Notes under the pieces: model-generated
Database searches by the model: none
Told to the model about the DNA's origin: nothing
The model's input: only the letters and a program-made list of their open reading frames with translations
Shown: piece by piece, positions 8,493 to 31,819 of the stretch
Layout of the letters: every line of letters begins with the position of its first letter
Position numbering within the stretch: position 1 is the first letter of the stretch
IMG/VR virus record: IMGVR_UViG_3300018906_000005
Span: 1 to 32,269 of that record
DNA length: 32,269 bases
Source of the DNA: a virus
Strand: one strand, 5' to 3'
Translations under genes and position numbers: made by a program

Positions 8493-8532
8493 GATGGGGA
8501 TTGCTCCTTATTCTTCAAATGTGCGGGGCATG

Positions 8533-8577
8533 AGCAAAAAGCCGTTTCATTCTTGGTTGGGTGAGCGGCTTTTTGCT
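8533..8577 (-). terminator. Hairpin/terminator enclosing a start-associated sequence
   Basis: Perfect 12-bp inverted repeat AGCAAAAAGCCG (8533-8544) / CGGCTTTTTGCT (8566-8577). The T5 run inside the second arm makes it terminator-like on either strand. The 21-base loop contains CACCCAACCAAG. It lies between gene 8590-9378 and gene 8214-8492 and could attenuate transcription between them. Confidence 0.65.
8552..8563 (-). promoter_or_regulatory. Start-associated sequence CACCCAACCAAG (in loop)
   Basis: Exact 12-mer on the minus strand, one base before an ATG (8550) that opens an 11-codon reading frame (8515-8550), and 59 bases before the main gene start at 8492. Confidence 0.7.
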
Positions 8578-8589
8578 GTGTGGGTGGGG

Positions 8590-14978: not shown

Positions 14979-15045
14979 AAAGGTTTTTTGGGGTGTCTCA
15001 GCAGCAATACGGGAAACATATCGAGAGGTAGCGAATTTTTTGCGG
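14979..15045 (+). promoter_or_regulatory. Late element A (candidate late promoter)
   Basis: Begins AAAGGTTTTTTGGGG, then about 24 variable bases, then ACATATCGAGAGG and GCGAATTTTTTGC. Matches elements B (24124) and C (31733) with the two conserved blocks at the same distance (56-57 bp to the ATTTTT block). It sits directly before the giant virion gene at 15066. Confidence 0.75.
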
Positions 15046-15065
15046 GGCAAATCGGCTCAAAAAGT

Positions 15066-18000
15066 ATGGCAAAGCAACCAAAAGTAGCGCGGATCAACAA
15101 CGCCAACCGGGGCACGTACGGCGGCGGCGCACGTTTTACGCCGGGGGATCAGAAAGCGGCACGATCGCAGAATCAGACGGCACTGAAGAAGCTGATCAGC
15201 CCAACGGCAAACCCTGCGGCGGCTGTGGCTGGTGAAATTGGGAAGATGGTCGAATGGCAGACGCTTTCTGCTCAGGATATGGGGGAAACCTACAGCCCCA
15301 ATAAACAGGGGTCAGGTTTTGGGTCACAGGTTGAACTACCGCGCGGTAACGTCGATCGCTATACGGCGGCTCTGCGTGGTCGGGCAGAAAAGCAGGGTGT
15401 ACGCTTTTTAGAAGATCCGAGCTTACACAAAAAGATAGCAAACCAATTCAGCACTACAGACACAACCGATTTTCTGGGGATGGCTTTAGACCCTGAACAA
15501 AGGCAACAGTATAAAGGGGATATTTATCTTTCACCGCGTTCTAATCTCAGTTCTTATGATCGGCTGAATGTGCTAACGCATGAACTAGGGCACGTTTACG
15601 CGGGTCACGTTAAGCGGGATTCTGACGCTTTTAGCATTGGGTATGGTGCAAAGGAAACCGAAGCCCAAACGATTGCTTATGGTGTGCAGAATCGTATTTA
15701 CCCTTGGCAGAAGCAACCGTTACAACGCGCGGCGGAATACAGTTTAGACAGTCAGAAAGGCGGCGGTGAGATTGGCGGCGCTGTCAGCATGGGGAAAGAC
15801 AACTTTTTTGGTATAGAACTAGGAACGCCGGGGGGCACTGATCCGGCTGCTCACTTATCAGACAAGCAGACACAAGCGCGGATTAATGCGGCTGTTAATA
15901 AAATCGCTCCGAATGCGCGTAAGCCATTTAAGGCGATGATTCCAGAGGTTACGGGGTTGCCTGTGCCTGCTTCGGCTCCGATTCAACCGCCGCCGCCGTT
16001 GCCAGTGCCTACAGTGAAGCAACCGCCTGCGGCTAAAAAGCCACACAACGGTTTGGGCAGCATGGCTGATCCTTTTGGTATGACTGCTTCGGCAAGGCAA
16101 GCGCCTGCGGCTAAACAGGGTCGATTGGGTAGACAGTTGGCGATTGATCCGCCTGATATGGACGATTTTAAGTCCTTCTTCAGTGACGAATTGGGGTTTG
16201 ATCAGCCGATCAGAACATCGCGCGGCTTGGCTATGACGGTGAAAAGTCCTAAGCAACAAACGATCAACGTCACCGCTACTCCAGTGGTTGAGCCGCGCGC
16301 GTACCTGAAAGCCGCCGCTACGCCTGCGCCTGCTCCGTCTACTGACGTTGTGAGTTCTGGCTTCCGGCTCAAGCAGCAGACACTAACGCCGCGTGACGTT
16401 GCCACAGGTGCCCCACGTTCGAGCGCCGTGCTGCGTGATGGGGTCTTTGAAGACTCCTTCAGAGTCAATCAACCCGCGCGTGCTGGTGCTGGCGGCTTCA
16501 GCCTATCGAGCGATCGCAATCTCAACCGACTACTCACCACTACGGGCACCTCTGGCGATAACGCTGGCTTCGGGCTGTCGGGTAAGCTCAAGCAGAATGT
16601 TACACGGTCAGAGTCGCCTGATACGACCGTCGCGGCATACGATCCGAACGCTCCAACGACCAAACCAACCAAGCTCACTCAACAGGCAGGCGATCGCCTC
16701 TTCTCTCCGAGCGAACGTCAACGGCTGAACCAGCGCGGGGAATATGTTGGGCTGGGCAATACCACTACTCCGGTCAAGTCCCAGAATCCGGCAATGGTGA
16801 AGCTCGGCGCGCTGGTCGATAACGTTAAAAAGGGGTTCTGGACTCCCGATCAATTCCGCGCTGAAGTGCAACGGACAGGGCTACAGAGCAAGTTTGAATC
16901 AGTGAAGCAGCTAGGGCAAACACTCTTTGGCTCTCGCGGTGGTGGGGAAGTCTACAGCGGCACCATGCAGCAGTCAGCGCGGCTCTCCGGTAACAATCCC
17001 CAAGCGGTCAAACTGCCACAGTCCACAGAAGTCTTAGGTGAGGCTGGCTTGTCACTCGACAGTTTCCGCATCAATCAGCCGCCGCGTGTGGGTGCGCCTG
17101 CGTCGGCTCCGTCGCGTTCCCTAGAGTTCAATATGGCTCTAAATAAAGCGCCTCTGGGTGGCTTTGCGGGGGATTCTGGCTCTGCCAAACTCTCACCGAT
17201 GACTAAGGCTCTGGGCTATCAAATCAAGGGACCGTCAGAAACGGGGCTACCCTGGAAAGTCGCCGCCGATCCTAAGACTGGTGAGATGCTGACGCTACAG
17301 GGCAAGCCGCTGCCGCCGTTGGTGGGTCCATCCTTCCCGACTAACCCTGATACGCCTGCGCCTGTGAAGCAGTCAGCCGTCAGCGGTCAACCGTCAGTGT
17401 TTAAACAGGGGTTTGAGGCTTCGACGGGGACAGGAACAACCCAGAAGCAGAGCTTTTTCAAACGTACCCCAGAACAAACGGCGGGTATGGGGTTGGGTGA
17501 TCGGCTGAAATTTGCGGCGGGTCGTGCCGCTGGTGATATCGCCTCGGATGCCTCACGTAACCAATACTGGCGTTATAACCATCCGCTAGCGATCGCGGGG
17601 GCTGGCTTTGAGAAGTTAGCCGGGGGGAATAAGTTAGGGGCTGCGGCTGCCAGCTTTGCAGGGATTCAAGCGCTGGGGCAAACCTCCAACCAGTTCGATT
17701 TAACCAATCCTGGGCAAGCGTTCCGACCAAAGGGCATGAGCGCGGCTTATCCGGTATCTGAGGCAGATAAGACCAAGATCGCGCCTGGTGTCGGTGGCTA
17801 TGCCAAAGAGCTACTAGGACGCTACGTTTTTGGTCGTAATGGCAACCTGCTCCCCTTCGATCAATTCAGCAAAGAGCGACCGGACGTTAATCAGGCAGAC
17901 TACAAGCGTTATAGCCAATACCTCAAGGGCGGCGGTGCCAATGGTCCCATGCCTGCGGGGACGATCGACGTGGGGGGCTTCGGTGTCCTCAAGGCTAACG

Positions 18001-19907
18001 CTAACGGGATCAATGGTCCAGAAGCGCGGCTAGCAGGTTTCAGCGTGACACCGCTCGGAGCTGCGGCGGGTACTGCGACAGCCACAGGGGTAGCAAGTCT
18101 CTGGAATAAAGGGCTACGTGGTCCAGCGATGAAAGGCTTGGGCGTAGTGGGCACAGCTTTAGACTTTTCCAACCGTCGCCGCGAGGGCCAAGGGGTAGAG
18201 CAAGCGGCTAAACAAACCGCTGTATCGTCGTCGGCTGCTCTGATGACTGGGCAATATGGCGCGGCTCTCGGTGCGCGGCTTGGTCCCGTTGGGGCTGTCG
18301 CTGGTGCGATCGTCGGGGGTGTGGTCGGGGGTGTGGCTGGCGATAGTGCGGTTAAGGCTGTGGATGCCAAAGCTAACGAAATTCGTGCGGTGCAGGCATC
18401 CGGCAAAGCTGACCCGATTAGTAAATTCCTGGCTGCTACTCCGATTGGTCGGTTAGCAATGCGCGCGCTGCCGGGGCGTAAAGAGGCTGAGAAACCAGCA
18501 GCAGATCAGGCAATGGCTACGGCAACCGATCGCCTGCTCAAGGCTTCCGCTAACTACAAACTGGTGCGGCAACCTGACGGCTCCGTTAAGTCAGTGCCTA
18601 ACGACACAGGCTCAAACGTGCGGGGTGAGGTGGTGAAAGTCTCAGACGGTGACAGCTATGAACTACGGACCTATGACCCAAAAACTAAGCAGTTTCAAAC
18701 GAATAACACTCGACTAGCGGGGGCTGATACCAGAGAGACAGCCGATCATGATAGCGATCCGTCTACTGGCTTCTTCAACAACATGATCAAAAAGCAGATT
18801 AAGGATCAGGGGTTTGCTGATAAGAATGCTGTTTTTGCTCAAGGGGAGAAAGATAAACAAGCTGCCTCTAAGCTCCTACCAGTGGGATCGATGGCGTATC
18901 AAACGGCTACAGGTGACTCTACACACGGTAGACCTGTGGCTGATGTTTCTAGCGAAGGGGGTAAGGATGTGGCGGCAAAATTGACTGAATCGGGCAATGC
19001 TCAGAAGTTCGAGAAGGACAAGAAAGGGGGGGCATCGGACGCTACCCGCGAGAAGATTGCTCAAATGCAGTATGGCAAGGATGGACAGGGCGATCGCAAG
19101 CTCAAAAGTCAGGAGAAGATTGCCACTCAGGGCAACCAGACAAAAATTACTGGCATCAAGTTGCAGAATCAGGGCAAACTCCAGAACACCGATCTACAGG
19201 GGCGTTACAAAATTGCCAATACTCAAGAGCAAAATAAGGGCAAACTCCAGAACACCGATCTACAGGGGCGTTACAAGCTTGCTAACACTGGTTTGCAGAA
19301 TCAGGGCAAGTTACAAGTAGCTGACTTAACCTCTGGGCGGCGGCTGCAAGGTCAAACCTACACGGCTGATCGTAAGCTGCAAGGTACGGTCTACAGTGCT
19401 GACACTAAGCTACAGGGCACAACGTACACCGCTGATCGTCGTCTCCAGGGCACCGCGTACACGGCTGATCGTAAGCTTCAGGGCACCGATTTAAGCTCTG
19501 GGCGCAAGCTGCAAGGTGATGCATACAAAGCCGATCGCGGCTACCAGGGCAAAGTTGACTCAGCCAAAATCACCGGGGGGCTGAAAATTGCCCAAGAAGG
19601 TGTGAAACAGTCCGGCGCTGCCAACGTTGCCACGATTAAAGCCGGGGGGCAAGTCGGCGCGGCTAGAGCCAATGCAGACGGTAAAGCGTACGGCGCTGAT
19701 CGAGTGCTGGAAGGGGCGCGCTATAAAGCTGATGCCACTGTCAAGGTAGCCTCAATCAAATCGGCTGAGGCTGAGACTAAGGCAACCTCTGAGGGGTCTA
19801 AGGCTCTGGCTTCCTACATGAGCAACATGAACCGCGATGAGGCGCGTGCTGAGTCAGAGAGTCAGAAAAATCGGGTAGCAAAATTACGTTTACTGGGAGT
19901 TTATTAA
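15066..19907 (+). CDS. Giant virion protein with zincin-like and SNase-like domains (ejection protein candidate)
   Basis: A 1613-residue protein. ATG 15066 is chosen because the longer frame begins at a TTG inside late element A. HELGH at 172-176 with downstream E197/E199 fits a gluzincin (M78/ImmA-like) metallopeptidase. Residues 260-780 are low-complexity and proline-rich. A Gly-zipper hydrophobic segment at about 1059-1093 could insert into membrane. Residues 1185-1285 look like a staphylococcal-nuclease fold: D1194-G-D1196 and R1216, D1221, E1224 keep the catalytic spacing. Residues 1358-1500 are repeats of YTADRKLQG type. Size, first late position and mixed enzymes suggest an internal protein injected with DNA. 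Confidence 0.75.
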   Translation: MAKQPKVARINNANRGTYGGGARFTPGDQKAARSQNQTALKKLISPTANPAAAVAGEIGKMVEWQTLSAQDMGETYSPNKQGSGFGSQVELPRGNVDRYTAALRGRAEKQGVRFLEDPSLHKKIANQFSTTDTTDFLGMALDPEQRQQYKGDIYLSPRSNLSSYDRLNVLTHELGHVYAGHVKRDSDAFSIGYGAKETEAQTIAYGVQNRIYPWQKQPLQRAAEYSLDSQKGGGEIGGAVSMGKDNFFGIELGTPGGTDPAAHLSDKQTQARINAAVNKIAPNARKPFKAMIPEVTGLPVPASAPIQPPPPLPVPTVKQPPAAKKPHNGLGSMADPFGMTASARQAPAAKQGRLGRQLAIDPPDMDDFKSFFSDELGFDQPIRTSRGLAMTVKSPKQQTINVTATPVVEPRAYLKAAATPAPAPSTDVVSSGFRLKQQTLTPRDVATGAPRSSAVLRDGVFEDSFRVNQPARAGAGGFSLSSDRNLNRLLTTTGTSGDNAGFGLSGKLKQNVTRSESPDTTVAAYDPNAPTTKPTKLTQQAGDRLFSPSERQRLNQRGEYVGLGNTTTPVKSQNPAMVKLGALVDNVKKGFWTPDQFRAEVQRTGLQSKFESVKQLGQTLFGSRGGGEVYSGTMQQSARLSGNNPQAVKLPQSTEVLGEAGLSLDSFRINQPPRVGAPASAPSRSLEFNMALNKAPLGGFAGDSGSAKLSPMTKALGYQIKGPSETGLPWKVAADPKTGEMLTLQGKPLPPLVGPSFPTNPDTPAPVKQSAVSGQPSVFKQGFEASTGTGTTQKQSFFKRTPEQTAGMGLGDRLKFAAGRAAGDIASDASRNQYWRYNHPLAIAGAGFEKLAGGNKLGAAAASFAGIQALGQTSNQFDLTNPGQAFRPKGMSAAYPVSEADKTKIAPGVGGYAKELLGRYVFGRNGNLLPFDQFSKERPDVNQADYKRYSQYLKGGGANGPMPAGTIDVGGFGVLKANANGINGPEARLAGFSVTPLGAAAGTATATGVASLWNKGLRGPAMKGLGVVGTALDFSNRRREGQGVEQAAKQTAVSSSAALMTGQYGAALGARLGPVGAVAGAIVGGVVGGVAGDSAVKAVDAKANEIRAVQASGKADPISKFLAATPIGRLAMRALPGRKEAEKPAADQAMATATDRLLKASANYKLVRQPDGSVKSVPNDTGSNVRGEVVKVSDGDSYELRTYDPKTKQFQTNNTRLAGADTRETADHDSDPSTGFFNNMIKKQIKDQGFADKNAVFAQGEKDKQAASKLLPVGSMAYQTATGDSTHGRPVADVSSEGGKDVAAKLTESGNAQKFEKDKKGGASDATREKIAQMQYGKDGQGDRKLKSQEKIATQGNQTKITGIKLQNQGKLQNTDLQGRYKIANTQEQNKGKLQNTDLQGRYKLANTGLQNQGKLQVADLTSGRRLQGQTYTADRKLQGTVYSADTKLQGTTYTADRRLQGTAYTADRKLQGTDLSSGRKLQGDAYKADRGYQGKVDSAKITGGLKIAQEGVKQSGAANVATIKAGGQVGAARANADGKAYGADRVLEGARYKADATVKVASIKSAEAETKATSEGSKALASYMSNMNRDEARAESESQKNRVAKLRLLGVY

Positions 19908-19908
19908 G

Positions 19909-20598
19909 ATGGCATTTTCTACGCCTGGGCTGATCGGTGGTCCTCGTACCACTACCGTTATGAAGGCATCCGCTCCCAATCAGAGCAAAATGGCTAATAA
20001 CGAGCTATTGAACCAATTGGAGAAGCTGAAACTAGAGCAAGCGATCGCCGCTGCTCAACGGGGTGGTGCTGCGCCTGCGCCTGGCGCGGGTGGTGCTGCT
20101 CCGTCTGCGGGTGCCCAATCACAAGCACAGCTACAGGCGGCGGCTCTGGCGGCTCAAATGCAACGGCAACAAGCGGCGGCGGGATCAACTCAATCGCTTC
20201 AGACTGAGCGGCTGCAATCGTCTGAGCGCATGACAGCGACACAACTAGCGGCTCAAATGCAGCAGCTACAGCAACGGCAGGGGGGCGATCGTACGATGCA
20301 ATCTGATCGACTTCAGGCGGCAACGTCTGACATGATCACACGTATGAACCTGGCACGTAAGGCACAGGGGGACGGCTACGAGTCACAGCGTACGATTCAG
20401 GCAGATCGACTCAATCAGGCTGATCGAGCGCTGGCGGCTAACATTCAGGGCAAGCGAGATCTGCAAACAGATGGCTCTGAACTGGAAGAAAAGCGTAAGA
20501 AAGACTCTGCTGCGCGTGCGTTGGCGTTGTTTAAGTCGGCTCCCGGCAACAGTTTGGGCAAACTAAACGTAGCCGGAGCTAGAGCGGAGTTAGGATAG
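19909..20598 (+). CDS. Second internal-virion-type protein (helical, Gln/Ala-rich)
   Basis: A 229-residue protein following the giant gene after one base. Residues 18-200 are almost continuous polar helix, rich in Q, A and R, with repeated words such as LQTERLQS, MQSDRLQA and IQADRLNQ that recall the YTADRKLQG repeats of the neighbour's C terminus. Probably a coiled-coil partner or a duplicated, truncated relative. Ends on a TAGTG overlap with the next gene. Confidence 0.6.
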   Translation: MAFSTPGLIGGPRTTTVMKASAPNQSKMANNELLNQLEKLKLEQAIAAAQRGGAAPAPGAGGAAPSAGAQSQAQLQAAALAAQMQRQQAAAGSTQSLQTERLQSSERMTATQLAAQMQQLQQRQGGDRTMQSDRLQAATSDMITRMNLARKAQGDGYESQRTIQADRLNQADRALAANIQGKRDLQTDGSELEEKRKKDSAARALALFKSAPGNSLGKLNVAGARAELG

Positions 20599-21170
20599 TG
20601 CCACAGAAATCCCCACAGTTTGACATTGACAAAGCACGGTCACAGATGACCGCTGAAGACCTGGCAGATTTTGATCACCTCTGCCGCTTTAATCCTACCT
20701 ACAGCGATATTCAGGGCAGGTTGAAAGAGTTGGGTTATACAGTCAGTCACTCGGCTGTACAGAGTTGGTTTACTGCTAATTATCCTGTGGGGGAAGAGGC
20801 AAAAGTCATCAATGCCCTTACGCTGTCGTATACGGGTGTTGAACCGTTCCAGGCGTTGCAAATGTCTATGAGTATCGCCGTCAGTTTGACTGATAGCTTG
20901 ATGAAGCATTGCGATGAATCGCGGTTAGCCAGTGCCTCGGCGGGGGATCTGATGATGACGGTGGGGGGCTTGCTCAAGGAAATGCGAACCTGCGCTAAGA
21001 CGTTGCAAGATTGGAAAGTAACGCGCGATCGTAAGGGTTTAGAGCTTGCTGGGGGCTATCGCCTGGTTGAAATCCTTCGCAACCTCTCAGAAGATAGCCC
21101 ACAGGCTACGCACTTGAGAGACTTTTGCGATGCTGCCATAGCTCAACTAGAGCAAGAGGTTAACGGTTAG
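20598..21170 (+). CDS. Small terminase subunit candidate (DUF3486/Mu gp27-like)
   Basis: A 190-residue protein starting at a GTG within the TAGTG overlap. The N-terminal half, with SDIQGRLKELGYTVSHSAVQ and SWF, is a helix-turn-helix like the DNA-binding domain of Mu gp27-type small terminases; the C-terminal half is helical, suited to oligomerisation. Two genes upstream of the large terminase, as expected for a small terminase. Family assignment is from pattern memory, not a search. Confidence 0.6.
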   Translation: MPQKSPQFDIDKARSQMTAEDLADFDHLCRFNPTYSDIQGRLKELGYTVSHSAVQSWFTANYPVGEEAKVINALTLSYTGVEPFQALQMSMSIAVSLTDSLMKHCDESRLASASAGDLMMTVGGLLKEMRTCAKTLQDWKVTRDRKGLELAGGYRLVEILRNLSEDSPQATHLRDFCDAAIAQLEQEVNG

Positions 21171-21958
21171 TGCTTTACTTTGTCGGCTGGCATCAAGCGA
21201 ATAGCGGGGCATCTGGAACACGCAACTTTGAACGCTGCCTTATCTCAATCAATCGCCTTCTGGATCGAGTGGCTGATTTTGTTGTGAACGACTGGATTCT
21301 AGACAGTGGGGCGTTTACCCGCGTGACTCGACAACACAGAAGTAAGGGGCATCTCTCAACCCGTAAATATGCCGCGCTAGCTCGTCGGTGGCAGCGATGC
21401 GGTCGATTGGTCGCCGTTGTCAGTCAAGATTATATGTGTGAGCCGATCGCGCTGGCGGCAACGGGTCTAGATGTCGCTACGCACCAAAGAGTTACACTGC
21501 TTCGCTATGACAATCTTTGCAAGCTGCTTGATGGCTCTGGACTGTATGTGATGCCAATACTACAGGGCTATGAACCGCAAGAATATGTAGACCATTTGCG
21601 GCTGTATGGCGATCGCCTGGTGCCTGGTGCCTGGGTGGGAGTGGGATCGGTCTGCAAGCGTAACGGCTCCCCTGCCAGTCTTCTCACTGTGCTGACCGCT
21701 ATCAAGCTAGAGCGTCCTGATCTACGCCTGCATGGGTTTGGGTTGAAGTTGACCGCGCTGGGCTGTTCTGGGGTAAGCGCTTTGCTGCATTCGTCAGATA
21801 GTCAGGCTCATAGCTTCGCGTGTCGCCAGAATAAATACTCACGTTCTAACAATGATCCACTAGGGGCGCTTGCTTATGTTGAGCGGGTTAACGCCGTCGT
21901 CCGGTTCCCCCACTCGGGGAAGGGTTGGGGATGGGGTGGGGAGCGCTTGCACCACTAG
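21170..21958 (+). CDS. DpdA/TGT-like DNA 7-deazaguanine transglycosylase
   Basis: A 262-residue TIM-barrel-type protein. Motifs line up with tRNA-guanine transglycosylase landmarks: DSGAF at 45-49 (TGT DSGGF, base-acting Asp), SQDYMCEP at 85-92, PILQGY at 129-134 (TGT QGG), GVGSVC at 157-162, RLHGFGLK at 186-193 and SSDSQAHS at 208-215 (candidate nucleophile D210). This matches the small phage DpdA-like group (DUF7221-type) that exchange guanine in DNA for a 7-deazaguanine. No preQ0 synthesis genes are present, so the host would supply the base. It starts at a TAGTG overlap with the small terminase; the last ~20 residues come from a G-rich repeat. Confidence 0.8.
   Translation: MLYFVGWHQANSGASGTRNFERCLISINRLLDRVADFVVNDWILDSGAFTRVTRQHRSKGHLSTRKYAALARRWQRCGRLVAVVSQDYMCEPIALAATGLDVATHQRVTLLRYDNLCKLLDGSGLYVMPILQGYEPQEYVDHLRLYGDRLVPGAWVGVGSVCKRNGSPASLLTVLTAIKLERPDLRLHGFGLKLTALGCSGVSALLHSSDSQAHSFACRQNKYSRSNNDPLGALAYVERVNAVVRFPHSGKGWGWGGERLHH
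21905..21941 (+). repeat. G-rich hairpin and quadruplex-type tract at the end of the DpdA-like gene
   Basis: TTCCCC (21905-21910) pairs with GGGGAA (21916-21921), followed by five G runs (21916-19, 22-24, 27-30, 33-36, 38-41). It resembles a dispersed repeat found between genes in cyanobacterial genomes and seems to have replaced the original C terminus of the gene. Confidence 0.5.
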
Positions 21959-22073
21959 CAGCCGTCATTCCACATGGGCGCGGGAATCGTCTTTGGCTTC
22001 TCCGTACAACATTAAGCCTTCACAAAAAGAACCGTAGAGCAACGGTCGTCTTAACAATGCAGCAAAGGACACG

Positions 22074-22095
22074 CTAGAAATATCAGAATTTCTAG
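22074..22095. promoter_or_regulatory. 8-bp dyad upstream of the large terminase gene
   Basis: CTAGAAAT (22074-22081), six bases, ATTTCTAG (22088-22095). It ends eight bases before the ATG of the large terminase gene, which has no ribosome-binding site, so the dyad could be an operator or a structure that affects initiation. Confidence 0.5.
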
Positions 22096-22103
22096 TATTT
22101 CCC

Positions 22104-23549
22104 ATGCCTGTACGCACTTCTAGCCGCGCCAAGTATCGCGCCAAAAACCGCAAGAATGAGCCTGCTCCCGCTACTCCAGAGGCTCTATTAGCGCGGCAAG
22201 ATTTAGGGGCATTTGGGGCGTATGTGGTGGGTAAGAAACCAGCCGCGCATCACTCTAGCTGGTTCCCTTACTTAGTTACGGGTGAGTCTTCAACGGAGCT
22301 TAATGAAATTGCGGGGGGCAACCTTTCGATCCTGGCTCCGCGTGGCTCCGCTAAATCGACGTGGTTAGCGTTGTACGCCGCGTTCAGCATTGGGCTTAAT
22401 CCCCACATCCAGATTATCTATGTGGGTTACTCCGAATCGGTAGCACTGAAGCAGTCCCGCATGATTAAGCGGATCGTGGCTTCTAAGCAGTATCAGCAAG
22501 TCTTCCCGTCCATCCGTCCCGGTCAACGCTGGAGTGATAGAGACTGGGAAATTGATAAAGAATTTGCAGGCGTTACGTCCCTTGACTCGGACTATACATT
22601 TTACGCGGTGGGCTGTCAGGGGGCAATTACAAGCCGCCGTAGCTCACTCATTATCTGTGATGACCTTATCAAGTCCAGCGCGGCGATCGCTAACCCCGAC
22701 ACGCGCGAGAAGATGCTATGTAACTACTCCGAGGTCTTGGAACCAACGCTCATCCCCGGCGGTCGCGTCGTTAGCATCGGTACGCGGTTCAGACCTGACG
22801 ATATCCATGCAACCGAATTTATCGCTTCTAACGGTTGGGAAGTCGTACAGCAGAGCGCGATCGAGACGGACGAGCGGGGCAACGAACGCTCCTACTGGGC
22901 GGCACGGTTCGGGCTTGAGTCGCTGCAAAAAATCAGAGACAGAAAGCCGCTGATCTTCTGCTTCCAGTATCAAAACAAGCTGCCTGACAATAGCGAAAAC
23001 GCGATCATCCGTCCTGAGTGGATTGTGTATGACGAATGCCCCACAACGTTCGATGAGTTGGTTCTAGGGGTCGATTTGGCTGCGTCTGAGAAGACCAGGG
23101 CAGACTATACGGCTATGGTTCTCGTCGGTCGCAAAGCTGACCTCTTCTATGTCGTGGATGTTATTGAATGGCGCGCGGTCGGCAACGTGGAGAAGATCAA
23201 AAAGATCTGCGAATTGCGTAAGAAGTGGGGCAACTTCAAGGTGATCGTTGAGAAGGTTGCCTATCAGTCCAGCTTCGAGGGTGATTGGAAAGTCGAAATG
23301 CAACGGCGGCGGCTCTCTGGCTTTGGCTGCGAGATGGTGACACCAAAGGGCGATAAGGACAGCAGACTAGAGGGCATTAGCGGGGTGTTCAGCAACAATA
23401 TCGTGCGGTTCTCTCGTACTGCCAAGTGTGGGCGGCTAGTGTCGCAGCTACTTCGCTTAGACTTAGAGCATGATGATTTGAGCGATGGTTGTGAGATGGC
23501 GATCGCACGCTTGCAACGTCGCAGCAGACGACCACTGACAACCGCTTGA
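22104..23549 (+). CDS. Terminase large subunit
   Basis: A 481-residue packaging motor. Walker A APRGSAKST is at residues 78-86; the hydrophobic strand LIICDD with D186 and D187 is Walker B plus catalytic acid region; the C-terminal nuclease begins at VLGVDLAASEKTRADYTAM with D324 as the first metal ligand. It cuts and pumps phage DNA into the prohead through the portal. No ribosome-binding site precedes the ATG; a dyad at 22074-22095 does. The upstream 145 bases hold no gene. Confidence 0.92.
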   Translation: MPVRTSSRAKYRAKNRKNEPAPATPEALLARQDLGAFGAYVVGKKPAAHHSSWFPYLVTGESSTELNEIAGGNLSILAPRGSAKSTWLALYAAFSIGLNPHIQIIYVGYSESVALKQSRMIKRIVASKQYQQVFPSIRPGQRWSDRDWEIDKEFAGVTSLDSDYTFYAVGCQGAITSRRSSLIICDDLIKSSAAIANPDTREKMLCNYSEVLEPTLIPGGRVVSIGTRFRPDDIHATEFIASNGWEVVQQSAIETDERGNERSYWAARFGLESLQKIRDRKPLIFCFQYQNKLPDNSENAIIRPEWIVYDECPTTFDELVLGVDLAASEKTRADYTAMVLVGRKADLFYVVDVIEWRAVGNVEKIKKICELRKKWGNFKVIVEKVAYQSSFEGDWKVEMQRRRLSGFGCEMVTPKGDKDSRLEGISGVFSNNIVRFSRTAKCGRLVSQLLRLDLEHDDLSDGCEMAIARLQRRSRRPLTTA

Positions 23550-23556
23550 GGTTTCT

Positions 23557-23928: not shown

Positions 23929-23948
23929 TTGCTAATCGAGCGATCGTT

Positions 23949-24125
23949 ATGAGACTCCGTGACCATTGGCTACTCTACGACTCGCAGAAGGACAGAAGGG
24001 AGACGCCGATCGCTCAACGCTTAGAGGAAGAAAACGCCTTCTACGCGGGTGCTGCGGTGATGCTGACCATACTAGAGGCAGACTTAGCCGCCTACCGTCG
24101 CATCATGATGGAGAGGGCACCATAA
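23949..24125 (+). CDS. Small 58-residue helical protein
   Basis: A short gene starting MRLRDHWLLYDSQKDRR and ending MMERAP. It is helical and amphipathic. It follows the gp49-type gene and its stop codon forms the first bases of late element B, an arrangement repeated at element C. It is similar in character to small unassigned proteins near phage packaging genes. Function unknown. Confidence 0.6.
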   Translation: MRLRDHWLLYDSQKDRRETPIAQRLEEENAFYAGAAVMLTILEADLAAYRRIMMERAP

Positions 24126-24193
24126 AGGTTTTTTGGGGGTGTACCCCAGAACAAACAGGACACATATCGACAGGGCGCGGATTTTTCGCAACC
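24124..24193 (+). promoter_or_regulatory. Late element B (candidate late promoter)
   Basis: Starts AAAGGTTTTTTGGGG (one extra G), 24 variable bases, then CACATATCGACAGG and GGATTTTTCGCAACC. Its first bases are shared with the stop codon of the 58-residue gene. It precedes the small-gene and head-gene cluster beginning at 24229. Confidence 0.8.
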
Positions 24194-24209
24194 TTAATTA
24201 ACGCTAAAA

Positions 24210-24221
24210 CACCCAACCAAG
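24210..24221 (+). promoter_or_regulatory. Start-associated sequence CACCCAACCAAG on the plus strand
   Basis: The only plus-strand copy; 7 bases before the ATG at 24229, the same arrangement as on the minus strand. Confidence 0.75.
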
Positions 24222-24228
24222 CAAGACT

Positions 24229-24468
24229 ATGACAGAAGATCAACGGTCAGAAGTAGGTGAAATTCTCCGCCGTCTCGGGCCGCCGCGTCAGTATCCGGAT
24301 CGCCGTCCTGGGGATGTCGTAGAGATGCCACTTCAACGTGTGAAGACGTATCAGAACGATGCTGTTACTGGTTTACCGCTTAGTTTTACTACGAGTGAGG
24401 GAATGAAGGTAAGGCTTCAGATTGCACCACAGGGCGATCGCTTCATTGTTCTGGGGCTAGTGCTATGA
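24229..24468 (+). CDS. Small hypothetical protein
   Basis: A 79-residue protein (MTEDQRSEVGEILRRLGPPR...) with a beta-rich second half (SFTTSEGMKVRLQIAPQGDR, FIVLGLVL). Its start has the start-associated leader; it is the first gene after late element B and overlaps the next gene by 4 bases (ATGA). Unknown function. Confidence 0.6.
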   Translation: MTEDQRSEVGEILRRLGPPRQYPDRRPGDVVEMPLQRVKTYQNDAVTGLPLSFTTSEGMKVRLQIAPQGDRFIVLGLVL

Positions 24469-24779
24469 CTGAACAACCAACAACCGAACGACTCGCCGCC
24501 GCGCTTGAAGCCGCCGCCGCGCCTGCTGCGATGATTGAACGTGCTAGAGCGGGTTATTACGATGACTATAAGAGTGAGCTAGCAACGCCATGCATTCAGC
24601 TAGTACATGACCTGGGGGCTGCTGGCTTAAAGGAGTTGCAAGACCGCGCGATCGATGGGGAATTTGATGGCACACGGGAAGAATCAGACGCATGGTTTCA
24701 GTCTGAGGGCAGGGGGATGTTGTTCGATTCGTTCATTGAGCAACCGAAGCGAGATAAGCCAAAAGGGTTTGGTAAATGA
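24465..24779 (+). CDS. Small hypothetical protein
   Basis: A 104-residue acidic, helical protein (AALEAAAAPAAMIERARAGY...). The C-terminal part reads FDGTREESDAWFQSEGRGML. Its ends overlap both neighbours by 4 bases, so it is part of a tightly coupled trio. Function not recognised. Confidence 0.6.
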   Translation: MTEQPTTERLAAALEAAAAPAAMIERARAGYYDDYKSELATPCIQLVHDLGAAGLKELQDRAIDGEFDGTREESDAWFQSEGRGMLFDSFIEQPKRDKPKGFGK

Positions 24780-24988
24780 CCTTTGAGACGTTGAGCGAAT
24801 CAGAGCTAGAGTTGCTTTTAGTCATCATGTGGAATTTCACAACGTCGCCGTGTACGCTGCCGGACTTTGTTGAGGGTCACGGTCATTTCTACTTTGCCAA
24901 CCGTCTAAGAGCGCTTGATTTTGATGACATCGATCGCCTGTGGTTGCGGGTGTTTGCGATTCTCTACCCTGACACTGCGACCGTGTAA
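24776..24988 (+). CDS. Small hypothetical protein
   Basis: A 70-residue acidic protein (MTFETLSESELELLLVIMWN...) translated from an ATGA overlap. Its stop lies within a copy of the genome-wide motif GTTACACGGTC (read on the minus strand). Unknown function. Confidence 0.55.
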   Translation: MTFETLSESELELLLVIMWNFTTSPCTLPDFVEGHGHFYFANRLRALDFDDIDRLWLRVFAILYPDTATV

Positions 24989-24991
24989 CAA

Positions 24992-25234
24992 CTACTCCAA
25001 CCGATACGCCCCAACGTCGCCGCTACGAATCACGCGAGAGATTGAGCCGCCGTTGCTCCATTCCACATGATCGATCGCCCAATCTTTGAGCATTGCCGCC
25101 GCGTAACCTTCGGCGTGTGGTGGGTGCCATAGAGGGTTAGAGACTGTATGCCATACACGGGTGCCCCGAATCTTCACTAGCAACGTGAACTCATCTGTTC
25201 TGGGGTGTGGGATCGTCTGTGATGGTCTGGGCAT
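24992..25234 (-). CDS. Antisense-oriented small gene (moron candidate)
   Basis: An 80-residue protein on the opposite strand from all its neighbours, between small late genes and the portal gene. The sequence FTLLVKIRGTRVWHTVSNPL, then AAAMLKDWAIDHVEWSNGG and SRVIR looks like a real alpha/beta protein. It starts nine bases from the portal start, head to head. Its own leftward promoter is required. Such single reversed genes are typical of late-acquired morons. Confidence 0.6.
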   Translation of the reverse strand: MPRPSQTIPHPRTDEFTLLVKIRGTRVWHTVSNPLWHPPHAEGYAAAMLKDWAIDHVEWSNGGSISRVIRSGDVGAYRLE

Positions 25235-25243
25235 TCTGGAGAA

Positions 25244-26965
25244 ATGGCAACATTACCAGAAATTCTAGCGGGTCAGGGGGAATCCCTCGTTGTTCACAAT
25301 CATCTGCAACAGATGATCACCTTTGCGCGCGCGGGTGGTGTGGAATTTGTCAGCCAAACCGATCAGGGTGGCGTACGCAAAACCTTTATCGATCGCCTGG
25401 TCCGTAAGAATCGCCTCAAGATTCGCATTAAAGCCATGCTAGTGCGGCTCATCAAAGGCGGCAAAATGTTGTTATACCTCCGCTCGGTCAAGGATGGCTA
25501 TAGAATCCACGATTACGGTAAAGAGAGTTATCGCGCCTATTACAACAGTGATGGCGATCTAGAGTCGGTGGTTATCATCTACAGCTACAAGAAGATGGAT
25601 GGCTCTCAAGAGCGCGATCGCTGGGTCAAGCTGCGGATCACGGCTCAATGGATTGAAAAGCAGGAAGGGGACGCAAAGCCAGAGTTTAACCAGGAATATA
25701 AGAGTACAGAAGTTTTTCCTCCGGTTGAGAATAGTTTGGGCTTTATCCCTTGTGTGGAAGTCCTCAACCCTGTGCCTGCCAGCGATAAAGAGGGTGTAAG
25801 CGATTTTGAAGAATTGGCTGCAAAGATTGAGGCTCACGATGATATGGTCACGGCGATCGTTGATAACGTCGATTTTTTCTGCCATTCGCCGCTGTTGACT
25901 TCGCGCGATGCGAGCGAGGTGTCAGAGTGTACCGGGGGTGATCCGCTCCATCAATCCGGCGTAGCGTTTGCCTCTGGGTTTCGTCCTGCTGGGGCTGCAT
26001 CAACCGCCGCCGCGCCTGGTCGCACTCGTCGCAGCCGCCGCCTCAAGAAAGTGATTGGTGGGATTGATGAAGGGGAGATGTTTTCTCAACTCGACATCAA
26101 CCCTGTGCCTGCTGACTTATTGAACTTTGCCAGTGGTTACGAGTCGCAGCTACGCGAGAGTATGGGCGGGATGCTGGAAAGAAGCATCAACACAGCCACA
26201 GAGACAACGATCGTGTACGGGAAAGTGATGGCAACGGCGGCGGAGAAGCAGAGCGCACTCTATACGCTGGGGCTGTGCGAAATCCTTGAAATGGCTCTGT
26301 ATGCCGAAGAAATGCTTTTTCTAGCCAGTCAGGGAACTATAGGGCTACCAGATTTGGGCGATCGTACCGTCAACTGGAGGGCTGCTCCGGTGTTTGTTGA
26401 GTCCACAAACGATATCAACCTACGGACCATCTCGGCGCGTAACCTCATGAAATTCGTGGGTGTCAGCGCTAAGGAGGCTCTTAAGTACACGTTCCCAGGC
26501 AAGTCAGATTCAGAGCTAGACGTAATGGTGGGTGATGGTGGCTTTCCATCGGATTATCTATCGACGGCGATCGATATGCTCACTAAGCTCAATGCAGCGC
26601 TTGATCCACTGACGCAACTCCCGATCACTGACCCAGCGACAGGTTTACCGCTTTCCTCTCTACTGCTCCCATTCATCGTAAATAACCTCAACTATGGACA
26701 GCAATTCAACCCCGAACCCGACAACGATAGCCCCGGATCAGCAGACCCTAACAGCGCCATCGCCGCCGCTCTCGCAACCGTCGCCAGAATCCAGCAGTCC
26801 CAGCAGCAGCAACAGTTGGACGGCGTGGAGTCAGCAAATGCTAGGGAACCTCTTCAACTCCCAACCGAGGGAAGCACAGTCAACGGCGGCGGCTCCGGTG
26901 GCTTCGGCGGCTTCTTCGACCCCAACCGCTCCCCAATCCTCAACGGACTCAAATCAATCTTCTAG
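25244..26965 (+). CDS. Portal protein
   Basis: A 573-residue portal, the ring through which DNA enters and leaves the head. The N-terminal half has alternating beta and helical segments (KGGKMLLYLRSVKDGYRIHD, FIPCVEVLNPVP), residues 195-225 a helix-rich stem with EAHDDMVTAIVDNV, followed by ESMGGMLERSI and a long helical clip/crown; the last ~80 residues are low-complexity (runs of Q and G). The pattern and position three cistrons before the capsid protein fit SPP1 gp6-type portals. Its 3' end overlaps the scaffold gene in another frame. Confidence 0.75.
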   Translation: MATLPEILAGQGESLVVHNHLQQMITFARAGGVEFVSQTDQGGVRKTFIDRLVRKNRLKIRIKAMLVRLIKGGKMLLYLRSVKDGYRIHDYGKESYRAYYNSDGDLESVVIIYSYKKMDGSQERDRWVKLRITAQWIEKQEGDAKPEFNQEYKSTEVFPPVENSLGFIPCVEVLNPVPASDKEGVSDFEELAAKIEAHDDMVTAIVDNVDFFCHSPLLTSRDASEVSECTGGDPLHQSGVAFASGFRPAGAASTAAAPGRTRRSRRLKKVIGGIDEGEMFSQLDINPVPADLLNFASGYESQLRESMGGMLERSINTATETTIVYGKVMATAAEKQSALYTLGLCEILEMALYAEEMLFLASQGTIGLPDLGDRTVNWRAAPVFVESTNDINLRTISARNLMKFVGVSAKEALKYTFPGKSDSELDVMVGDGGFPSDYLSTAIDMLTKLNAALDPLTQLPITDPATGLPLSSLLLPFIVNNLNYGQQFNPEPDNDSPGSADPNSAIAAALATVARIQQSQQQQQLDGVESANAREPLQLPTEGSTVNGGGSGGFGGFFDPNRSPILNGLKSIF

Positions 26966-27392
26966 TGAGCCAGCAGTAGACGAGAACGGCTTTCCACTTG
27001 ATGAGGGTTATCTACGCGAGCAGGGTTTAGACCTTGTAACGCTTAACCGTGAATATGTCACGCAGCAGGAGCAGATTGCCGCTCTCACTTCCGTTCTGGC
27101 TGATCCGGTGCAACGTGCTGAGTTTTTAGCGGCTCTTGACTCAAATGGGAATAATAACAACGTGAACAACGATCCAAACAATCCAGCGGTACAACGTCAA
27201 TCCTTCCCCGGTGGTGCGCCTGGGCAGACCCAACAAACGCCATCGTTAGAGGACTACTACAACCAACTACAGCAAGTGGTCGCGGCTGGTAATCCAATCG
27301 ACAACATGGGCGCAATCCAAGCCGCTTATGACGCGATTCCTGATGAGGTCTACCGACAACTCGCCGGGACGTTTATCAGAGGCGACTACTAG
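26838..27392 (+). CDS. Scaffolding-like protein overlapping the portal gene
   Basis: A 184-residue hydrophilic protein. The N-terminal 45 residues (PREAQSTAAAPVASAASSTP...) are low-complexity; the rest is helical and acidic (LREQGLDLVTLNREYVTQQE) with a Q-rich, P-rich tail ending YRQLAGTFIRGDY, all typical of scaffolds. ATG 26838 has GGAG seven bases upstream; an earlier ATG at 26694 lacks one. The 128-base overlap with the portal is in a different frame and cannot be avoided with any nearby start. Confidence 0.65.
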   Translation: MLGNLFNSQPREAQSTAAAPVASAASSTPTAPQSSTDSNQSSSEPAVDENGFPLDEGYLREQGLDLVTLNREYVTQQEQIAALTSVLADPVQRAEFLAALDSNGNNNNVNNDPNNPAVQRQSFPGGAPGQTQQTPSLEDYYNQLQQVVAAGNPIDNMGAIQAAYDAIPDEVYRQLAGTFIRGDY

Positions 27393-27458
27393 ACCGTTTC
27401 GACCGTGTAACACTCAACGCTTGCTCAACTACTTACTCTCTCCTACCCGTACAGAAAG

Positions 27459-28520
27459 ATGCCGCTATTTCTCGATGATGCCGTCCCCGGTCTTTTAGGT
27501 CGTAATTTGATGCGTTTCGCTCCGGCGTATAGCGCGATGAAAGTGTTTCAGCCTGCCGTAGTCCATGATTACCAGGCGGCTCGTACCAAACAGGTGCAAT
27601 TAGACAGGTTTAAGCCTTGGGGTGAGAAAGGTCTGACCAAGAATGCGAGACGGCGCGACAAAACGCAAATCGTTGGCACTGGTAACAGTGAGGGGCTAAC
27701 CAAGACAACGAAAACGATCGCGATCCATGAGCATACCGGACCGTCTGACGCTTTCGGCAACCCTTCGACCTTGCATTTGACGAAGGAAGATATGTTGTTT
27801 GCGAGGCAACAGCTATTCCAGTACGGCATGACTAAGTTTCATGAGTCGATCGGGTCTGCTAACCTCGCTGACGACTTCCAACGGTGGTGGGATCGCATCC
27901 ACTATCTAGAAGCAATGTCTACCAGTTACAAGTACAACTCTGGCAATAAGCTCGACGCGGCTACGCTGGTCACAGATAAGTTCACTTCTAACGACCTAAC
28001 CAACATCCGTTACAGATTGGCTGTCACCAATACGCCTCGCTTCCAAGACGGCACCTATCACGGTGCGATTTCTGAGGAAATGTTGACGCATCTTCTGCAA
28101 GATGAAGACTTTAAAAACTTCGCGCGCGCCATCATCCAATCTGGGACGCAACCCGTAACGCAGACCTACCAAAGCTATGGACCGCAAAGCATTGGGCAAC
28201 AGATTACAGGGATGCCGATGCAGGGTGAGCAAGGTCTGCCGCCGATCGTGTACAACGGCTTTACCTTGTACCCTTCCAACAACCTACCGACTCGGACAGT
28301 TAACGGCTTAACGGCACGGCTTGGCATCTTCACAGGTCCAGGCGCGATCGGCATCGGCTCCGGTGGGCGTGGTCCAGTGATCGAAGTGGATAGCCAAACC
28401 GATTTCAACAGACACTATCATTTCATCTGGAGCTGGTGGGGCGATATCGTCTACCTGCTCGATGATGATGATTCTAGTGGTACTTGTGTAGAGGCTCGGA
28501 CCTTCGCGCCGATTCTGTAA
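27459..28520 (+). CDS. Major capsid protein
   Basis: A 353-residue protein directly after the scaffold gene. A helical N-terminal arm, then KTIAIHEHTGPSDAFGNPST, a central helical domain (MLFARQQLFQYGMTKFHESI), and a C-terminal beta-rich domain with VIEVDSQTDFNRHYHFIWSW, a pattern of HK97-fold coat proteins of the N4 gp56/P22 coat type. It forms the icosahedral shell; gene order terminase, portal, scaffold, coat supports the call. A GAAAG site precedes the start. Confidence 0.8.
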   Translation: MPLFLDDAVPGLLGRNLMRFAPAYSAMKVFQPAVVHDYQAARTKQVQLDRFKPWGEKGLTKNARRRDKTQIVGTGNSEGLTKTTKTIAIHEHTGPSDAFGNPSTLHLTKEDMLFARQQLFQYGMTKFHESIGSANLADDFQRWWDRIHYLEAMSTSYKYNSGNKLDAATLVTDKFTSNDLTNIRYRLAVTNTPRFQDGTYHGAISEEMLTHLLQDEDFKNFARAIIQSGTQPVTQTYQSYGPQSIGQQITGMPMQGEQGLPPIVYNGFTLYPSNNLPTRTVNGLTARLGIFTGPGAIGIGSGGRGPVIEVDSQTDFNRHYHFIWSWWGDIVYLLDDDDSSGTCVEARTFAPIL

Positions 28521-28549
28521 TGTCTGCTCTGGGCTAGTCATTAAGCGTA

Positions 28550-29176
28550 ATGGCTAGCTACTCACCCCTCACCCCTCACCTTAGACCTATGGCACTTACA
28601 GGCAATTTTACAGATAATCGCGCGGCTCTCCTGGCTGGGGTGGAAAACCTTGAGCTAGGCTTTACCGCGTGGGCGATCTACGGCTCCGCTGCGATTTCGG
28701 TCGCCGCTGGTACGGCTGTGATCACCGATATTAACGGGCAACCGTTTACCGTCCCCGCTAGCGCTGCCGACCCTAGTTACATCACCTATTGCAGTTTCTA
28801 CCTGCCTGCGGGTGTGGTGGCTGATGCTGCTAACCGTGTGCTTAAATTGGCTCCACTTGCAACGACAGCGGCAGGACCAACGGCGGCTAGTTCGCTGGTA
28901 TCCGGAGCCTCTCCCTTTGCCTATGCGGCTCAAGGTGCGCTGAGTGCATCGGTGCCTGGTGTGGTGTCTGCGATTACTGCCCCTACCACTTTCGCGCTGT
29001 TTTCAACGGATGGGGCTAACGCCGCCGCTGGTACGTTCGCCGCTGTCTCTGGGACAATCTATGCTGACTGTCAGGTGCTTTTCCTCAAGCGTAAACGTGC
29101 GATCGGTCAAGGTGGGGCACTTCGCAGCCGCGAACAAGCTTACAAAGCAGCTGGCGTAGCTGCTGGCTCTATCTAG
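28550..29176 (+). CDS. Hypothetical structural protein (decoration or head-associated)
   Basis: A 208-residue alanine-, serine- and threonine-rich, beta-type protein with a basic C terminus (LKRKRAIGQGGALRSREQAY). It follows the capsid gene, where decoration or head-fibre proteins are common. ATG 28550 and ATG 28589 are both possible; neither has a strong ribosome-binding site. No family recognised. Confidence 0.55.
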   Translation: MASYSPLTPHLRPMALTGNFTDNRAALLAGVENLELGFTAWAIYGSAAISVAAGTAVITDINGQPFTVPASAADPSYITYCSFYLPAGVVADAANRVLKLAPLATTAAGPTAASSLVSGASPFAYAAQGALSASVPGVVSAITAPTTFALFSTDGANAAAGTFAAVSGTIYADCQVLFLKRKRAIGQGGALRSREQAYKAAGVAAGSI

Positions 29177-29184
29177 GTGAACTA

Positions 29185-29385
29185 ATGAAACTAATCTACA
29201 AAGGGCAAGAAGTCGAAGCATCCGAGATTAAAACCCCTAGCGGTGATTCGGTGATCGGCTATGAAGTTGAGGGTGAGATCTTAATGCCTCAACAGGTGCA
29301 ACTTTTGGATGGCGATGCTGCAACGGTAGAGATCGTTGAATCAGTGATTAAGAGCAAGCGCAGTAAGGATACCACTATCATCTAA
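29185..29385 (+). CDS. Small structural or accessory protein
   Basis: A 66-residue protein, beta-rich first half (KLIYKGQEVEASEIKTPSGD) and a basic C terminus. AGGTGA is placed well before the ATG. It overlaps the next start by one base. Unknown function, likely head or neck related by position. Confidence 0.6.
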   Translation: MKLIYKGQEVEASEIKTPSGDSVIGYEVEGEILMPQQVQLLDGDAATVEIVESVIKSKRSKDTTII

Positions 29386-29852
29386 TGTCATCCCTGAGCG
29401 ACTTAGATAAATCTCGCGTCCGTTATCACCTGGGCTATAACGAGAGCGTGCCTACGGGCGATCGTGCATTGTTAGAGCATCGCATGACTCGCATTGCTGA
29501 CAGCTTCACGGTGGGGAAGATTGTCGATAAGCTACTGCGGTGCGATCGGTCGTTGGCAGAAACCGAAACCGATGAACAATCCAGCGGGATTAGCTCTAAG
29601 CGCATCCTGTTAGGGGACGTGAATAGAACCGATGTCCTTTACACTCAAGAACCGCTAGAGAAGCGTATTAGGGCATACAAGCGCGATTGTGATGCGTTGG
29701 CGCGGGATCTGGGTGTGGTGAACTGGAACGATCCGGAGATGGATGGCTACAGAATCTACAGCGATACCATCACCGATCCACAAATCCCCGCGCCTGTGGA
29801 GATCACGATTAATTTAACGCTGGGCACTGACCTCTATTTGTACTTTGCATAA
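29385..29852 (+). CDS. Head-tail connector/adaptor candidate
   Basis: A 155-residue protein with helical N-terminal 110 residues (SDLDKSRVRYHLGYNESVPT...) and a beta-type C-terminal end (VEITINLTLGTDLYLYF). Helical proteins of this length between coat and tail genes are usually adaptors or head completion proteins. The ATG lies in a TAATG overlap with the previous gene. Family not recognised. Confidence 0.55.
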   Translation: MSSLSDLDKSRVRYHLGYNESVPTGDRALLEHRMTRIADSFTVGKIVDKLLRCDRSLAETETDEQSSGISSKRILLGDVNRTDVLYTQEPLEKRIRAYKRDCDALARDLGVVNWNDPEMDGYRIYSDTITDPQIPAPVEITINLTLGTDLYLYFA

Positions 29853-30292
29853 TGGCAGTTAACAAAGCGCCGATCTTCGTTGAAAAACCCGCGCTGTGGA
29901 CCGGGGCACTCACTACCCAAGCATTGAGCCGTGATGGTACTACGGGTAATGGGCTGCTACTGGGGATTGCTTCAGAGTCAGGCTTTTTGCTCTACTCGGT
30001 GTGGGCGATTCCATCGGGCAACTTTACGGCTAATACGCTGCGGCTGTTTCGGCTGGCAACCGGGGCAACCGTCCCTAGCCTCATCCTGGAGACGTCGATC
30101 GCCGCCGTCGCTGGGTCAAGTGAGACTGTAGCGATTCCTCGGACCGCTGTACCACTCCCTGACGTTCTTACCCCTACGGGTAGCTTTGGGCTGCTCCTGA
30201 GTCCCGGCGATCAGTTGTTCGCGGCTCTGGGTGTTGCCTCCGGTGTGGCGCTGCGGGTATCGGCTCACGGTGGACAGTACCAATTCGGCTAA
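29852..30292 (+). CDS. Beta-rich neck or tail protein
   Basis: A 146-residue protein of alternating hydrophobic strands (ESGFLLYSVWAIPSGNFTAN, SFGLLLSPGDQLFAALGVAS), consistent with a beta-sandwich virion protein. Translationally coupled to the preceding gene through TAATG. Possibly a tail completion or tail-tube component; not recognised. Confidence 0.55.
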   Translation: MAVNKAPIFVEKPALWTGALTTQALSRDGTTGNGLLLGIASESGFLLYSVWAIPSGNFTANTLRLFRLATGATVPSLILETSIAAVAGSSETVAIPRTAVPLPDVLTPTGSFGLLLSPGDQLFAALGVASGVALRVSAHGGQYQFG

Positions 30293-30303
30293 GGGGTGAA
30301 TGG

Positions 30304-31734
30304 GTGAATAAGCCTCGCAAGCCTCGCTCTGTTACACGGTCGAATGCTGGCGTTAGGGGTCGTGCGCCTGGGCACTCGCCAGAATATACCCCAGAACAGA
30401 CCGCACGGTATAAGTCGCAAGCGCTGCGCTACTCGAAGGCTGTAGAGTTAGCGGTTGCTGGTCCTAGCTTTGTCCAGACAGGGGACGGCTTGCAGCTATC
30501 GACGGATGTGATCAGGGGGAAGGGGCAAAACGTTTTCGAGCTGAGCGATCGGTTGTTGTTCCGGTACTCCAGTGACCGATCGCCGCGCGACTACTGGACC
30601 GTTCAGCTAGAGGGTGCAAAGTTGACGATCGACGGTGATGTAGTTGTCAGTGGTGATCCGCCTGCGGTGGCTAACTGGGCGTTCGCTCATCCCGATTTCA
30701 TCTTTGCGGCAACGGGTGTGAGGGAGGGTGAGCCGGGGGGCATGATGACACCTCTACCTGCTCCGCCTGTGTTGCCTACTGGTCCCGCGCCGCCTGGTGC
30801 AACTGCTCGGACTTGGGAGATCAACGTCACTCAATACAACGGACCAACTTATCAGTATCAAGATGGTCAGAAAGTGACGTTAGCGGCTCCTTCAGCGGTT
30901 GTCTTTCCGCCGTTCCGCTTCGCTGATTTTCCGTCTGAGGCTGGGTACGATCTCACGATCAACACTATATTCAACGCGGCAACTCAAGAGACTAACTACC
31001 TTTTTGATGTCGATCCGATTCGTAACGGCTTCCGCTCTATTACTTCAGTTGGTGCCTACTTCCCTCCTGGTGACTTGCCGGATGAAGCAATCCCAAAGCC
31101 TACTGGTAACTCGATCGTCTTTACTGAATATCGCTACTTTGCCTACACCCTAAAGCTGATTAGTGGCACGTCTCCTTCACCGACTGACCCGAATCCCACA
31201 TATACCTATGACCCTGGCTTGCCGCCGCTGCCTGGTGCGCTTGCGGGTGGTGAATGGGAGAGCAACATTCTGACCTTCAGCGAACCGCAGACGGTGACGA
31301 TCGCCGCTAGTTACGTGATTGAGTTTGCTAGTGATGTGGCTTCCTCGGTTGAGTGGCAATACAACGGTGAGACGGCGGGAACGTTGCAACTACCTGGGGG
31401 CGCGGCGGGAACGTATCAGGTAGAGACTGAGATCGAGTTACCTGCTAATACAGCGGTGCAATTCTTCATTCATCTGCTGCCTGAGACGCATCTAAATAAC
31501 GCCTTAATCAGCTTGCCTGTGGGCGTGGGGGATGTGGCTTTGCGGTGTGATTGTCCCGACTACTCGCGCGGCGTGGGTGCGCTGCCACGTTCGCGTTGGT
31601 TGAGTGAGGGGGGCGATCGTGATTGGTCCGGTAGTGGTGCAGGTTGCGATCAGGATGAAGGCTGCAAGCACATCATCGCTACACGGCTGCACGTTGGGCT
31701 AGAGCAAGAGGCATACACAGACATACCGCTATAA
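30304..31734 (+). CDS. Large virion-type protein with C-terminal SWIM-like zinc motif
   Basis: A 476-residue protein with GTG start behind AAGGGG. Residues 1-110 are basic then alpha/beta; 120-145 is a proline-rich linker; 150-400 are beta-rich, tail-like segments. Residues 418-460 carry CDCPDYSRG, then ... CDQDEGCKHIIATRL, matching the SWIM pattern C-x-C-x(n)-C-x-H that binds zinc and often nucleic acid or protein. SWIM domains are unusual on a structural protein. The stop codon is shared with late element C. Likely a tail or tail-tip protein; could be a DNA-handling late protein. Confidence 0.55.
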   Translation: MNKPRKPRSVTRSNAGVRGRAPGHSPEYTPEQTARYKSQALRYSKAVELAVAGPSFVQTGDGLQLSTDVIRGKGQNVFELSDRLLFRYSSDRSPRDYWTVQLEGAKLTIDGDVVVSGDPPAVANWAFAHPDFIFAATGVREGEPGGMMTPLPAPPVLPTGPAPPGATARTWEINVTQYNGPTYQYQDGQKVTLAAPSAVVFPPFRFADFPSEAGYDLTINTIFNAATQETNYLFDVDPIRNGFRSITSVGAYFPPGDLPDEAIPKPTGNSIVFTEYRYFAYTLKLISGTSPSPTDPNPTYTYDPGLPPLPGALAGGEWESNILTFSEPQTVTIAASYVIEFASDVASSVEWQYNGETAGTLQLPGGAAGTYQVETEIELPANTAVQFFIHLLPETHLNNALISLPVGVGDVALRCDCPDYSRGVGALPRSRWLSEGGDRDWSGSGAGCDQDEGCKHIIATRLHVGLEQEAYTDIPL

Positions 31735-31801
31735 AGGTTTTTTGGGGTAGGCAGACAGAGACGCGGGAACACTATCGACAGGTCGCTAATTTTTCACAAC
31801 C
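31733..31801 (+). promoter_or_regulatory. Late element C (candidate late promoter)
   Basis: AAAGGTTTTTTGGGG, 24 variable bases, then CTATCGACAGG and TAATTTTTCACAACC. Its first bases include the stop codon of the SWIM-motif gene. It precedes the tail-fibre gene at 31820 by 18 bases. Confidence 0.8.
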
Positions 31802-31819
31802 CTAAATGGCTGCTAAACA

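Follow-up and report, generated by a model that had tools for sequence, protein, structure and literature searches.

A conserved two-part element upstream of late gene segments is a candidate late promoter in a family of small cyanophages

The cyanophage sequence IMGVR_UViG_3300018906_000005, analysed over its whole length of 32,269 nt (hereafter the window), has mostly leftward genes between positions 1385 and 14955; rightward genes from 15066 onwards include those for a 1613-amino acid protein, the large terminase, the portal and the tail fibre. The ends of the window repeat over 127 bases, and the phage genome is therefore a circle of 32142 unique bp (~32.1 kb). Three copies of a short element, e1, e2 and e3, stand before three blocks of virion genes, one each, and we asked what these copies are and whether they could serve as the late promoters that a first-pass annotation of the sequence had proposed.

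The first-pass annotation placed three right-facing copies at 14979, 24124 and 31733, and this agrees both with a search for the exact 15-mer AAAGGTTTTTTGGGG (block 1), which occurs exactly three times in the window and always on the plus strand, and with a position-weight scan in which both blocks combined score ~67-69 bits at these three sites and ~1 bit or less elsewhere in the genome on either strand, except for one-base shifts of the same sites. Block 2, TATCGA.AGG..GC..AWWTTT, lies 3' of block 1 and a spacer; the spacer had been put at 24 bases, but we count 25 nt to TATCGA, or strictly 26 in copy 2, where a fifth G is added. The ATTTTT stretch described at 56-57 bp begins at a distance of 57 nt (copies 1 and 2) or 56 nt (copy 3) from where the element starts. 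No further occurrence of block 1, spacer and block 2 was found in the window phage genome, and three copies of a 15-mer never arose when the window was shuffled 200 times under a Markov model. Within the genome, e1 sits in the divergent gap between a minus-strand gene and the giant late gene, e2 heads a variable cassette that is followed by the portal and head genes, and e3 heads the tail-fibre gene (Table 1). The start codon of the giant protein is ATG 15066 rather than a TTG within e1. Copies 2 and 3 do share their first bases with a preceding TAA stop (for copy 2, the stop of an open frame of 66 codons that ends at 24125 and is matched in the sister phage described below; for copy 3, that of ORF 30304-31734), but this position shifts in relatives, where the junction at the element start reads TAAAAGG, TAGAAAGG or TAAAAAGG. 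Because the junction differs, the overlap is a sign of compactness, and the element itself does not include it.

Table 1. Coordinates of the elements, their leaders and associated features in the window.
Feature	Position	Strand	Remarks
Element e1	14979..15041	+	Block 1 14979-14993, 25-nt spacer, block 2 from TATCGA 15019 to T run
Leader e1 to ATG 15066	15042..15065	+	Start codon 87 nt from element start, likewise for e3
Giant protein, 1613 aa	15066..19907	+	First gene after e1
Element e2	24124..24186	+	Block 1 24124-24138, extra G in spacer, block 2 from TATCGA 24165
Leader e2 to ATG 24229	24187..24228	+	Contains start-associated repeat CACCCAACCAAG at 24210
Portal, overlapping ORF, likely major head protein	25244..28520	+	Segment after e2
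Element e3	31733..31794	+	Block 1 31733-31747, 25-nt spacer, block 2 from TATCGA 31773
Leader e3 to ATG 31820	31795..31819	+	
Tail-fibre gene	31820..32269, through circle to 667	+	After e3
Divergent neighbour of e1	14116..14955	-	Adjoins e1 in relatives too; candidate regulator only
CACCCAACCAAG copies	2225, 7598, 8563, 9397, 11467, 11851	-	
CACCCAACCAAG copy	24210	+	

Two genes of the window have features of their own. The giant protein contains an HELGH motif, a staphylococcal-nuclease-like stretch recognised by eye and, near its C-terminus, repeats ~11 and ~22 residues long. A queuine tRNA-ribosyltransferase-like gene (21170-21958; phrog_1279, E 6e-47) separates the likely small from the large terminase and has no counterpart at the matching place in the sister phage.

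A consensus search in related cyanophages, suggested by the first-pass annotation, recovered the element in three relatives: a sister phage (IMGVR_UViG_3300018894_000013, 32492 bp), whose head protein is 98% identical to that of the window phage; a 16.6-kb partial contig, IMGVR_UViG_3300037851_001213 (L127; head protein 69% identical); and the genome of Stenomitos frigidus ULC18 (Leptolyngbyaceae), which contains a relative with a 77% identical major head protein. The Stenomitos relative is probably a prophage because it adjoins a tRNA-Phe gene and an ORF that by eye resembles a tyrosine recombinase (the prophage has an integrase-like ORF beside tRNA-Phe, at L231 8091-9394); no integrase was recognised among the subset of window-phage ORFs scanned. 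Only one annotated phage, Synechococcus phage S-EIV1, was found to be related, through the portal and likely major head protein (~30-33% identity), and in this and other distant relatives (L125, L128 and loci G280, G302 and G402) the element was not found by pattern. Together, the four phages hold 11 copies, three each in the window phage, sister phage and Stenomitos prophage and two in L127, all in the same orientation. The three of the sister phage match the places of those in the window, and in the Stenomitos prophage one lies at the early/late divergence, one behind the terminase and one ahead of the tail fibre. The e1 (early/late junction) and e3 (tail-fibre) positions are thus occupied in 4/4 phages, with e1 at the early/late divergence in the window phage, the sister phage and the Stenomitos prophage, and the e2 (head-gene) position in 3/4; in L127 the terminase is directly followed by the portal and the e2 cassette is absent. 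Nine of the 11 copies are 85-134 bp upstream of a late-gene ATG and two have no adjoining plus-strand gene start. That each element opens a late segment, as first proposed, holds for the window and sister phages but needs qualifying for e1 of the other two, where minus-strand genes (Stenomitos) or a minus-strand ORF with a hairpin and T run behind it (L127) intervene between e1 and the giant gene and would have to be crossed by transcripts from e1.

When the 11 copies are aligned on TATCGA (position 0), the invariant positions are TTTTT (-36 to -32), TATCGA (0-5), G9, GC12-13, A16, TTT19-21 and AAA42-44. Mean identity between phages is 0.72 for block 1 and 0.76 for block 2, compared to 0.43 for the spacer and 0.50 for the 23 nt that follow block 2, and the spacer keeps a length of 25 across phages although its sequence is only ~43% identical. 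A constant length with a free sequence is the pattern expected of a site at which a protein contacts DNA twice. Spacers within one phage are partly alike (those of e1 and e3 in L127 agree at 24/25 positions, and sister e2 and e1 share TCTCAGCAGCAA), which suggests exchange between element copies within a phage.

We next defined a strict pattern, TTTTTTN{29,31}TATCGASRSGNNGC, which matched 1/386 cyanobacterial genomes; its three matches there all lie within the Stenomitos prophage, it was absent from the other 385 genomes searched, and the 42 genomes of Stenomitos' order gave no other match. Among viral contigs it matched 16 stretches, and the matches outside the element-bearing phages look like chance, having neither a cyanobacterial signature nor a second independent copy in the stretch examined. 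An exact 14-mer scan of viral contigs, which hit at least 119 stretches, was too unspecific for use. Within the open-access literature, we found no report of the element. Collectively, these data identify a real, conserved, family-specific, two-part element.

How might such an element act? As is general for late promoters, it is repeated in one orientation 5' of late operons, and relatives have kept it. The conserved blocks contain no pair of TTGACA- and TATAAT-like hexamers at a distance of 16-18 nt, and we rejected a sigma-70/SigA reading of them; no sigma-70-type -10/-35 match occurs in e1 or e2, and a single weak 9/12 match is found at 31793-31821, at the e3 leader. Near the elements, neither sigma-70-type promoters nor terminators exceed the frequency seen in shuffles. 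As in the first-pass annotation, no phage RNA polymerase was recognised. A PF00940 search gave no match in the phage but was equally silent in its control genomes, so its silence is uninformative; no early ORF, however, exceeds 360 amino acids. Our favoured explanation, to which we assign a probability of roughly 0.6, is that this family of phages uses the element as its late promoter, at which host RNA polymerase is redirected by a putative phage factor. This factor would be a protein made or altered after infection. On duplex DNA, and always across 25 bp, it would contact block 1, an A/T tract plus a run of G or C, and block 2 (TATCGA...AWWTTT). It would position the host polymerase such that transcription begins between block 2 and the start codon, and the three copies would together turn on the late segments headed by the giant gene, the head cassette and the tail-fibre gene. 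Since the conserved blocks are without sigma-70-type hexamers, the factor could equally be a sigma-like protein of the phage or an activator.

The element could instead work at the RNA level, as a leader transcribed from a promoter further upstream and serving as a signal for mRNA processing, antitermination or translation. Several copies begin immediately 3' of a stop codon and so lie within possible long transcripts, copies just 5' of start codons have no clear Shine-Dalgarno sequence, and the window and sister phages have almost the same leader sequences 3' of block 2, such that the conserved unit extends past block 2. Against this, RNAalifold on six copies gave a two-sided change at 2/17 pairs and an unfavourable covariation term (+2.08), so that a structured RNA leader or riboswitch, for which covarying secondary structure is not supported, was rejected; fixed spacing with a free spacer sequence better suits duplex DNA, and the two copies away from any plus-strand gene start fit a leader poorly. 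We consider an RNA-level role unlikely, and similarly so a role as an operator or structural site at which a phage DNA-binding protein (a repressor, silencer, partition or replication protein) binds to something other than a promoter. The lack of sigma-70-type hexamers would suit such a site, as would the 24 bp that separate e1 from the start codon of the conserved divergent gene and the ribbon-helix-helix proteins that the phage encodes, but a pure operator needs neither the invariant orientation nor the placement of all window and sister copies at the head of a rightward late segment. Very unlikely, in our view, are module-boundary repeats, that is, duplication leftovers serving as homologous recombination points for cassette swapping: the window and sister phages have different genes after e2, L127 lacks the e2 cassette and within-phage spacers look partly homogenised, but neutral leftovers would not retain two blocks and their exact spacing while spacers diverge between phages.

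If the element is a late promoter, which protein might read it? Searches of Pfam, PHROGs and NCBIfam yielded no late activator. Homologues of the 14116-14955 product adjoin e1 in the sister phage and in Stenomitos, with the C-terminal end most conserved, and L127 contains a 47-residue match to the Stenomitos divergent protein near e1. AlphaFold models of two candidate regulators reached mean pLDDT values of 48 and 65, a fold search with both returned no significant structural match, and the model of the 14116-14955 product is too weak for naming its fold. We regard this product as a lead only for the late-transcription factor.

The activator-dependent late promoters of temperate phages, such as those served by P2 Ogr and Mu C, occur several times per genome, each before a late operon, and carry a conserved box 5' of the site where transcription presumably starts, with host polymerase as the presumed enzyme. 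The element resembles them in its multiple copies, one per late operon; it differs in that no Ogr- or C-like protein was recognised here and in that its downstream block is not sigma-70-like. T4-like late promoters depend on the phage sigma factor gp55 (PMC5780444) and likewise combine a short late-specific signal with host core polymerase and a phage factor, whereas the element comprises only three copies with two blocks 25 bp apart and lacks a T4-like TATAAATA, and no sigma region 4 match above cut-off was found in the window phage (PF04545, best match 11.2 bits against 24.1), which leaves room for a divergent sigma factor. In the freshwater cyanophage Ma-LMM01, late genes are preceded by predicted promoters akin to the host SigA site WTNNANN16-22TATTMT (PMC5780444); like the element, these stand before late genes of a cyanophage, but the element is unlike the SigA site.

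Start-associated sequences of cluster K mycobacteriophages are multi-copy short repeats beside gene starts (PMC3203893). The late element differs from them in being longer, bipartite, three-copy and at least 85 bp from the start codon. A second repeat does resemble them (PMC3203893). This is CACCCAACCAAG, often with AGGA after it. It occurs 7 times in the window, 10 times in the sister phage and 8 times in the Stenomitos prophage, against a shuffle mean of 0.12 copies per genome, and for 20/25 copies the start codon of an ORF (30 amino acids or longer) lies 3-12 nt downstream; CACCCAACCAAG marks the start codons of early genes. One copy lies in the loop of a strong minus-strand hairpin (window 8532-8580, L132 8938-8986) whose stems differ between the two phages while pairing is kept, and the Stenomitos prophage has a weaker form of this hairpin. 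The early region also contains a run of ~9-bp, AACTTCTAG-like repeats at 12023-12160, with short forms near 2890 and 22085.

Overall, the retention of both parts and their exact distance in relatives, including the Stenomitos prophage, suggests a kind of late-gene promoter that has not been recorded before, in contrast to the late promoters described for Ma-LMM01, which are close to the host SigA type. More tentatively, small cyanophages related to S-EIV1 may possess a dedicated late-transcription system that pairs a bipartite non-SigA promoter with an undescribed phage specificity factor, possibly the divergent protein beside e1. If the element is a late promoter, it would be a marker for late operons in the genomes of this group and a defined DNA bait for the specificity factor, and the existence of a sequenced strain with a three-copy prophage, S. 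frigidus ULC18, makes a direct test possible.
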